From Actinocatenispora rupis (GTDB lineage Bacteria > Actinomycetota > Actinomycetes > Mycobacteriales > Micromonosporaceae): a DNA stretch of 64,000 nucleotides. Made by a program: the position numbers and the translations under genes. The stretch lies in contig NZ_BOMB01000023.1 of NCBI RefSeq assembly GCF_016861975.1, positions 62,001 to 126,000 of the forward strand, written 5' to 3'. Under the pieces are notes generated by a model that made no database searches, was not told the DNA's origin, and worked only from the letters and a program-made list of their open reading frames with translations. Numbering within the stretch: position 1 is the first letter of the stretch; every line of letters starts with the position of its first letter. This document shows, piece after piece, positions 4,149 to 51,953 of the stretch.

Positions 4149-4225
4149 CACACCTAGGGCGTGACTTCGTAGGTTCGGTCGAGCGAGCCGGAGTGCAATC
4201 GTCGTCTCGCAGGACGGAGGTACGA

Positions 4226-4321
4226 GTGCGTACCGGTGTCGTATGCGCTCGTGCCAACAATGCGGCAAGGCGGCGCGCGGGCCTGGCGCAGCCCGCCAGC
4301 AACCTGCGAAGACACCCCTAG
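4226..4321 (+). other. Possible leader-peptide ORF in a structured spacer
   Basis: A GTG at 4226 is preceded at proper distance by GGAGG and opens a 31-codon frame ending in TAG at 4319-4321, inside the palindrome at 4313-4326. The RNA reads GGGCCTGGC, then a TGGCG/CGCCA hairpin, AGCAACC, a CACCCC/GGGGTG hairpin and GGTGC. This order recalls the core of S-adenosylmethionine riboswitches, but the match is loose and no plus-strand gene follows. It could be a remnant leader. The 4149-4492 spacer contains no other convincing gene. Confidence 0.25.
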
Positions 4322-4326
4322 GGGTG
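4313..4326. promoter_or_regulatory. G-rich palindrome resembling a CsoR-type operator
   Basis: CACCCCTAGGGGTG is a perfect 14-base palindrome about 165 bases upstream of the multicopper oxidase start. Copper-sensing CsoR repressors bind C-run/G-run palindromes of this shape, and the downstream enzyme is a copper protein. The distance is larger than usual, and the same sequence could instead form an RNA hairpin on the plus strand. Confidence 0.35.
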
Positions 4327-7502: not shown

Positions 7503-7561
7503 TTGTCCAATTGTGTCATTGTCCAACTGTTGAACAATAACACAGTTGAACAATTGGACAA
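7503..7561. repeat. AT-rich palindromic repeat, copy A
   Basis: A 59-base dyad sits between convergent genes. The outer arms TTGTCCAATTGT and ACAATTGGACAA are perfect complements. The inner arms GTGTCATTGTCCAAC and GTTGAACAATAACAC pair at 13 of 15 positions, with the two exceptions becoming G-U pairs in minus-strand RNA. It is strikingly AT-rich against its surroundings and related to copies at 42340-42408 and 50984-51036. It may act as a bidirectional terminator or be a small mobile repeat. Confidence 0.85.
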
Positions 7562-42257: not shown

Positions 42258-42339
42258 AGGTGTGGGGGCGCGGTTTGGGTGTGGGCCGCGACCGGGGGTG
42301 GGGGCGGGGCGGTCGCGATGTTGATCTTGGCGTACGCCG

Positions 42340-42408
42340 ATTGTTCAATTGTGTCATTGTTCAACTGTTGAACAATGACACAGTTGAACAATGAGACAAT
42401 TGGACAAT
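42340..42408. repeat. AT-rich palindromic repeat, copy B
   Basis: Bases 42340-42392 form an almost perfect 53-base palindrome: two 26-base arms pair at 25 positions around a single T at 42366. Its core arms GTGTCATTGTTCAAC and GTTGAACAATGACAC are perfect. A further GAGACAATTGGACAAT follows. It lies between the convergent ornithine-cyclodeaminase-like and acyl-CoA dehydrogenase genes. The flanking DNA to 42534 appears gene-free. Confidence 0.9.
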
Positions 42409-50983: not shown

Positions 50984-51036
50984 ATTGTTCAACTGTTGAC
51001 TTGTTGAACAAGGCGACAGTTGAACAATTGGACAAT
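50984..51036. repeat. AT-rich palindromic repeat, copy C
   Basis: ATTGTTCAACTGT (50984-50996) and ACAGTTGAACAAT (51016-51028) are perfect 13-base complements. Inside them CTTGTT and AACAAG pair around a single G. It ends with GGACAATC like copies A and B. It lies inside the sugar operon between permease and fucosidase genes, so it cannot be an absolute terminator if the operon is continuous. The 50833-51056 spacer has no gene. Confidence 0.85.
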
Positions 51037-51056
51037 CGATAGGCGGACCAAGATCA

Positions 51057-51953
51057 TCAGCGCCCCGCGAGGCCGCTCGTCGCGACCCCCTTGACGAGGT
51101 GCTTCTGCAGGAACAGCAGCAGGATCAGGGTCGGCAGGATCGAGATGACGGACGCGGCCATGACGAGGTGCCACTGGTTGCCGTTCTGTCCGAAGAACAG
51201 TTCGAGGCCGAGCGGCACGGTGCCGCGCGCGTTCACGTCGTTGATCATGACGAGGGGCCACAGGAAGCTGTTCCAGAAGTTCACGAAGGTGAAGACGGCG
51301 AGTACGCCGAGCGCCGGCTTGGCCATGGGCAGCATGATCTGGAGGAACGTCCGGAGCGGCCCGCACCCGTCGATGCGGGCCGCTTCCTGCAGCTCGTACG
51401 GCACGGCCTTGAAGAACTGCCGGAGCAGGAACGTACCGAACGCGGTGAACGCCCACGGGAAGATGAGCGCGGCGTACGAGTCGACCCAGCCGAAGCGCTG
51501 CATGAGGATGAACATCGGCACGATGAGTACTTCCTGGGGAACCATGATGGTGCCGAGGAAGACGAGGAAGAGGCTGTCGCGGCCGCGCCATTTGAGGCTG
51601 GCGAAGGCGTACGCGGACAGGGCCGAGGCGATGAGCGTGACGATGGTGCCGGCGCCGGCGACGAACATCCCGTTGAGGATGTACCGGTGGAACGGCACGA
51701 ACGTGAAGACGTCGACGAAGTTCTGCCAGCGGATGGACGAGCCGACCAGGCTCGGCGGCGTGGAGAACGTCTCGCCCGCCGGCTTGAGCGCGGTCGCGAC
51801 CGTGAAGATCAGCGGGAACAGGAACGCGAGCGCGACCAGCACGAGCAGTACGTGGGAGATGGTCTGGCGGATGCGCCGGTTGCGTTGGCGTCGCTGGATG
51901 CGGTCGGCGCCGGTGTCGTGGGCCGCGGTGCGGCGCAGCGTATCAGTGCTCAT
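51057..51953 (-). CDS. Carbohydrate ABC transporter permease (MalG-type)
   Basis: A 298-residue inner-membrane component with six helices. The cytoplasmic EAA loop reads EAARIDGCGPLRTFLQIMLPMAKP near residue 200 and contacts the ATPase. It forms a heteromeric channel with the following MalF-type permease. No ATPase is encoded nearby; actinomycetes often share one ATPase (MsiK type) among several sugar importers. It overlaps the MalF-type gene by 11 bases. Confidence 0.93.
   Translation of the reverse strand: MSTDTLRRTAAHDTGADRIQRRQRNRRIRQTISHVLLVLVALAFLFPLIFTVATALKPAGETFSTPPSLVGSSIRWQNFVDVFTFVPFHRYILNGMFVAGAGTIVTLIASALSAYAFASLKWRGRDSLFLVFLGTIMVPQEVLIVPMFILMQRFGWVDSYAALIFPWAFTAFGTFLLRQFFKAVPYELQEAARIDGCGPLRTFLQIMLPMAKPALGVLAVFTFVNFWNSFLWPLVMINDVNARGTVPLGLELFFGQNGNQWHLVMAASVISILPTLILLLFLQKHLVKGVATSGLAGR

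Follow-up and report, generated by a model that had tools for sequence, protein, structure and literature searches.

Which constraint keeps alike the AT-rich palindromes that lie between genes in this DNA? The question arises at positions 42340-42408 of the window, the whole stretch of 64,000 nucleotides that was analysed. The original prediction reported three related elements, and each of them was found in its place (A, B and C below). Two of them have a companion box nearby.

7503 to 7561, no strand: element A, seven modules (59 nt = 7x8+3)
42320 to 42329, minus strand: companion box CAAGATCAAC (GTTGATCTTG on the plus strand), outward-pointing, 11 nt from element B
42341 to 42407, no strand: element B, eight modules (67 nt = 8x8+3)
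50985 to 51035, no strand: element C, six modules (51 nt = 6x8+3)
51036 to 51042, plus strand: flank TCGATAG, immediately after element C
51049 to 51058, plus strand: companion box CAAGATCATC with one mismatch, outward-pointing, 13 nt from element C

All three elements lie between genes, as had been claimed. Element A occupies the convergent spacer between a GntR/aminotransferase gene and a PAP2 gene. Likewise, element B is placed between the convergent genes for an ornithine cyclodeaminase-like protein and an acyl-CoA dehydrogenase. Element C separates an ABC permease gene from an alpha-L-fucosidase gene, both on the minus strand. The description of copy B as a near-perfect palindrome is also right. 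Its inverted repeat has arms of 26 nt (42340-42365 and 42367-42392), complementary at 25 of 26 positions. In element A, in-phase ACAR tetrads run on weakly to 7577. An Rfam search of the window gave one tRNA alone above the gathering score.

A dispersed family in one genome

The source genome (G000; 7.83 Mb, 81 contigs, 96.8% complete) holds at least 68 dispersed AT-rich palindromes, the window trio included. This bears out the prediction of a dispersed family. The number is a lower bound, made up of 54 and 14 non-overlapping places obtained with the anchors ACAGTTGAACAAT and ACAATTGAACAAT. There are 84 exact matches to ACAGTTGAACAAT in the genome and 199 with up to one mismatch; the pattern written backwards, a control for genome searches, gave 0. 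The anchor ACAATTGAACAAT occurs at 51 exact places. For the detailed description, we parsed 60 stretches and the window (1.24 Mb in total), which contain 63 elements. In this sample of own sequence, chosen around elements, AGTTGAACAAT is about 5,900 times commoner than base composition predicts.

The proposed search for the consensus thus gave many copies at home, and none in related genomes. No family copies were found in the three other genomes of the genus, about 250 of the family and 395 more sampled across the phylum; stray hits, one or two per genome, were about as frequent as those of the control pattern. Islands that are AT-rich and contain inverted repeats number 49 in the 1.24 Mb of own sequence (chosen around elements) against 0 in 400 kb from each of two sister genomes. 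At the locus of element A (7503), the gap between the alignable flanks measures 521 nt in the source genome and 86-197 nt in sister genomes, whose orthologous spacers show no trace of the element. These spacers differ too much between species for a target-site duplication to be read. Judged from these comparisons, the whole family arose after the split from the sister species. A plasmid or phage carrier is without support, with no similar sequence among PLSDB plasmids and INPHARED phages; two viral contigs match the element pattern. Searching the literature by the sequence letters of the repeat gave nothing relevant.

Other repeats were seen along the way. The sister genome G002 (L201-L220) has its own dispersed motif, ATCCCTTGATCAAC, with 13-16 copies per 400 kb. 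This motif does not figure among the words over-represented in the source genome, which suggests a different family in each species. The short palindromes CCACTGTGGA and CCACAGTGGA are over-represented in the source genome (about 77-80 copies per 1.24 Mb), and TCCACAGTGGA is over-represented in G002 too. A segment of about 170 nt at window positions ~4153-4323 has many dispersed copies (75-87% identity) in the source and sister genomes. It may be a genus-wide repeat or a repeated domain.

A strict eight-base word grammar

The main feature of the elements is a strict grammar of 8-base words, which the original prediction missed. Element B illustrates it:

ttg TTCAA ttg TGTCA ttg TTCAA ctg TTGAA caa TGACA cag TTGAA caa TGAGA caa TTGGA caa

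The length is exactly 8n+3 in 62 of 63 parsed elements (range 35-83 nt), and all 62 consist of triplets alternating with 5-nt modules. Every 8th base starts one of the triplets TTG, CTG, CAA or CAG (454/456), so that the 8-base unit reads YTGT-NNMA. Read in their own orientation, the 456 units show two changes in the 1,368 positions of TGT (unit positions 2-4). At unit positions 5-7, 20-35% of units deviate from the commonest base. The finder sought YTGT/ACAR tetrads and accepted a single broken tetrad if intact ones stood on both sides. Almost no broken ones occurred; however, the invariance of TGT is somewhat inflated because the finder itself used these tetrads. The phase finder could not be controlled with reversed sequence, since reversed words keep the period. 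Hold-out elements served as the control for the grammar. Five elements outside the derivation of the rule follow it in runs that span 5-10 in-phase triplets.

The orientation of the units is equally regular. In all 62 elements a forward unit stands first and a reverse unit last, converging on one centre, with a single switch near the middle in 55. The imbalance between the two sides of the switch averages 1.74, against 3.15 expected if the switch point were random (0 of 2000 simulations). Each element therefore consists of two arrays of 8-bp units, YTGT-NNMA and then TKNN-ACAR, which converge and meet at a YTGT-NNN-ACAR centre.

Outside the arrays, the flanks are mostly unrelated to each other. 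The companion box CAAGATCAAC lies outward of the array by 5-16 nt, mostly 9-13, in about 18 elements and is one-sided in all of these except one. Within the sample, 13 of 21 copies of AAGATCAAC fall within 60 nt of an element (0.2 expected); TCGATAG and ATCGATTG are likewise concentrated near elements.

Genomic location

Gene context was obtained for 60 elements with a simple gene caller. Convergent spacers are favoured (20 elements against 19% of spacer length, p 0.008) and divergent ones avoided (7 elements against 27%, p 0.005); the remaining 33 lie in same-strand spacers, where the element is often closer to the downstream start. The distance to the preceding stop ranges from overlapping to more than 1 kb and is not consistently short. 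No recurrent gene family was present among the neighbours, which speaks against both a regulon and an autonomous transposon. Long predicted open frames contain two of the elements (L061:9957-10015 and L064:9913-9979). The second is located between FAD-binding and NADH:flavin oxidoreductase domains, possibly in a spacer between two genes or as an insertion in a coding region.

The dnaA gene is on the same contig as the window (C23), at 152.9 kb, which is 27 to 91 kb from the window. Of the 68 elements, 12 lie on this contig of 325 kb, against an expectation of 2.8 (p 4e-5, a post hoc comparison). The contigs were placed roughly, by alignment to two complete sister genomes; element-free contigs could not be placed. 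On this scale, contigs farther from dnaA tend to have a lower element density (Spearman -0.56, p 0.04; -0.69 once two weakly placed contigs are left out). C28 matches C23 in density, yet it maps, weakly, 1.6 Mb away. The enrichment toward the origin is suggestive only.

Arrays that a protein might read

The usual explanations for dispersed palindromes in bacteria are RNA hairpins and RAYT transposition. Here, the 8-base phase and the TGT core are held constant across dozens of copies, and pairing appears as a by-product. Fixed phase and TGT, with intervening bases and pair partners free, are the pattern expected of cooperatively read arrays. The boxes are unspaced, follow a fixed 8-bp step, occur in either orientation and keep an invariant YTGT/ACAR core. 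We tentatively favour, as a reading short of probable, arrays for a cooperative DNA-binding protein that steps by 8 bp and acts on the chromosome, laid out on a recently spread repeat.

Under this explanation, one subunit of a sequence-specific protein would contact each YTGT/ACAR tetrad. The protein would bind cooperatively in 8-bp steps, like ribbon-helix-helix proteins such as MetJ, and two oriented filaments would meet at the element centre. The palindrome would then be a by-product of converging arrays of one word and not itself selected. The family might have spread and diversified by gaining and losing whole 8-bp units; the pair L069 and L070, with a difference of one such unit, fits this. 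The putative protein would bridge, compact or segregate the chromosome and not serve as an operator-bound regulator, because promoter-bearing divergent spacers are avoided, the neighbours share no family and the dnaA contig is the densest. We infer each of three things: that the reader would be a protein, that it would be of the ribbon-helix-helix class, and that it would act on chromosome structure. A search of the source genome with the RHH_1 profile gave no cognate protein: its one match above the cut-off is a small ORF on C1 without visible link to the arrays.

If the arrays are protein-read, they could represent a recently evolved genome-wide DNA-binding system. A stronger version is decidedly improbable. 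It supposes a lineage-specific chromosome-organising system, where converging 8-bp-phased arrays, densest around oriC, would nucleate oriented filaments that bridge or segregate the chromosome.

Possible spread as a selfish repeat

The main rival is a selfish or passive repeat with 8-bp slippage, a possible though somewhat doubtful reading. It supposes a young REP- or MITE-like palindrome, copied by a transposase or by template switching and tolerated in 3' spacers. The conservation of the words would then reflect recent spread from few source arrays and not function. The species-specific burst fits this account, as do the shorter, element-free spacers of the sister species and the REP-like bias to convergent and same-strand spacers (compare PMC3733652). 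So do near-duplicates: L069 and L070 differ by one 8-bp unit and have matching flanks, and L037 and L058 have flanks in common. However, no RAYT-type (Y1) transposase was matched in the source genome by the PF01797 profile. The GTAG and CGTC tags are also missing, being seen at 1 and 2 of 126 element ends, respectively. Neither an autonomous copy nor a recurrent adjoining gene was found, and unrelated flanks prevail. Moreover, recent spread alone leaves unexplained the many module variants beside a near-constant TGT.

Pairing, terminators and operators

The original prediction also held that differences between copies mostly preserve pairing, as if compensatory changes were selected at the RNA or cruciform level. 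The arm-swap comparison does not support the claim of preserved pairing or that of selection on RNA pairing. Module positions are paired at 70.3% with the own arms and at 68.3% when right arms are swapped between elements; among 1000 shuffles, 177 equal or exceed the observed pairing, or 29 if the best of three registers is used. Own arms pair hardly better than swapped ones, so words are conserved and not specific pairs; arm-specific compensatory changes were not seen. A weak excess exists for rare modules, which stand opposite their exact complement in 12 of 21 cases (shuffle mean 4.5). It indicates that pairing or a history of fold-back may matter too. Taken together, these results mean that pairing adds little beyond the shared word vocabulary.

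These figures weigh on the suggestion that the elements are bidirectional terminators or stabilisers of mRNA 3' ends, working as long RNA hairpins. The predicted hairpins are strong (-44 kcal/mol and z -9.9 for element B; over the family, z averages about -7 relative to mononucleotide shuffles), and the excess in convergent spacers agrees with this role. Nevertheless, the stems are AU-rich and lack a U-tract. At element B, no terminator-like site was matched on either strand between 42000 and 43000. The flank consensus of the family is T-C-G, not T-rich; an intrinsic terminator was rejected by sequence. The scattered stop distances, the same-strand elements near downstream starts, the swapped arms that pair as well as the own ones and the sister species without elements at the same loci also speak against it. 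We consider this explanation unlikely, and the terminator family that had been proposed is not supported.

Operators of one transcription factor with a regulon are very unlikely: the core is palindromic with a conserved tetrad, and we take its YTGT-NNN-ACAR centre to resemble FadR-type GntR operators, but promoter-rich divergent spacers are avoided, the neighbours have no common family and the distance to the start is arbitrary.

Comparison with known systems

Several known systems share features with the converging arrays. parS sites, bound by ParB, are also multiple short palindromes concentrated near oriC. However, their sequence GTTTCACGTGAAAC is unrelated, with no match in the window at up to two mismatches, and the elements occur genome-wide.

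REP sequences of the GTAG and CGTC super-families are short dispersed palindromes, often species-specific, found mainly in convergent and unidirectional spacers (PMC3733652). The elements are similar in being dispersed and species-specific and in preferring convergent and same-strand spacers. In contrast, they measure 35-83 nt in strict 8-nt steps with variable internal word order, and most exceed 40 nt, while REP palindromes have 20-40 bp. Strict REP membership is ruled out by the missing tag and the missing RAYT. A MITE has constant terminal inverted repeats and a target-site duplication; here, the ends read TTGTYCAA...TTGRACAA, and the CAAGATCAAC box beyond them stands mostly on one side. 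The earlier assignment to REP- or MITE-like elements or protein binding sites is supported as to kind and fails for REP in the strict sense.

A scan with a 24-base pattern gave tandem octamer arrays; the matches listed were all from other phyla, mostly Bacteroidota. These (TTGAACAA)n arrays use the words TTGTTCAA/TTGTCCAA and a step of 8 nt, as the elements do. Nevertheless, their invariant core is GTTC and they run mostly in one direction, whereas the elements converge and have the core TGT. For these reasons, we take them as an analogy. GTTC-core arrays reach up to 39 units (L096, L113, L131, L140, L164 and others), and no description of them was found in the literature searched by their letters. 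In Prevotella aff. ruminicola (L115, L132, L145, L152), (TTGGACAA)3 occurs at several sites in inverted pairs, spaced by about 160 nt, that look like a small mobile element. The Pfam family 23S_rRNA_IVP, suspected from the octamer arrays in Bacteroidota, is absent from the source genome.

The met boxes of MetJ follow 8-bp steps and the omega sites of pSM19035 are 7-bp heptads; both are bound by ribbon-helix-helix proteins. They resemble the elements in their unspaced short boxes, direct or inverted, with fixed steps and, on the favoured reading, cooperative dimers. However, they make up a small number of operators or centromeres, whereas the elements are dispersed by the dozen and obligatorily convergent.

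The nearest published analogue is the TAACTGA heptamers, identical 7-nt direct repeats placed just upstream of start codons (PMC4679880). Both are abundant intergenic arrays of short words with a patchy phylogeny. Nevertheless, the elements described here consist of varied 8-nt words that converge, and they are depleted from divergent spacers.
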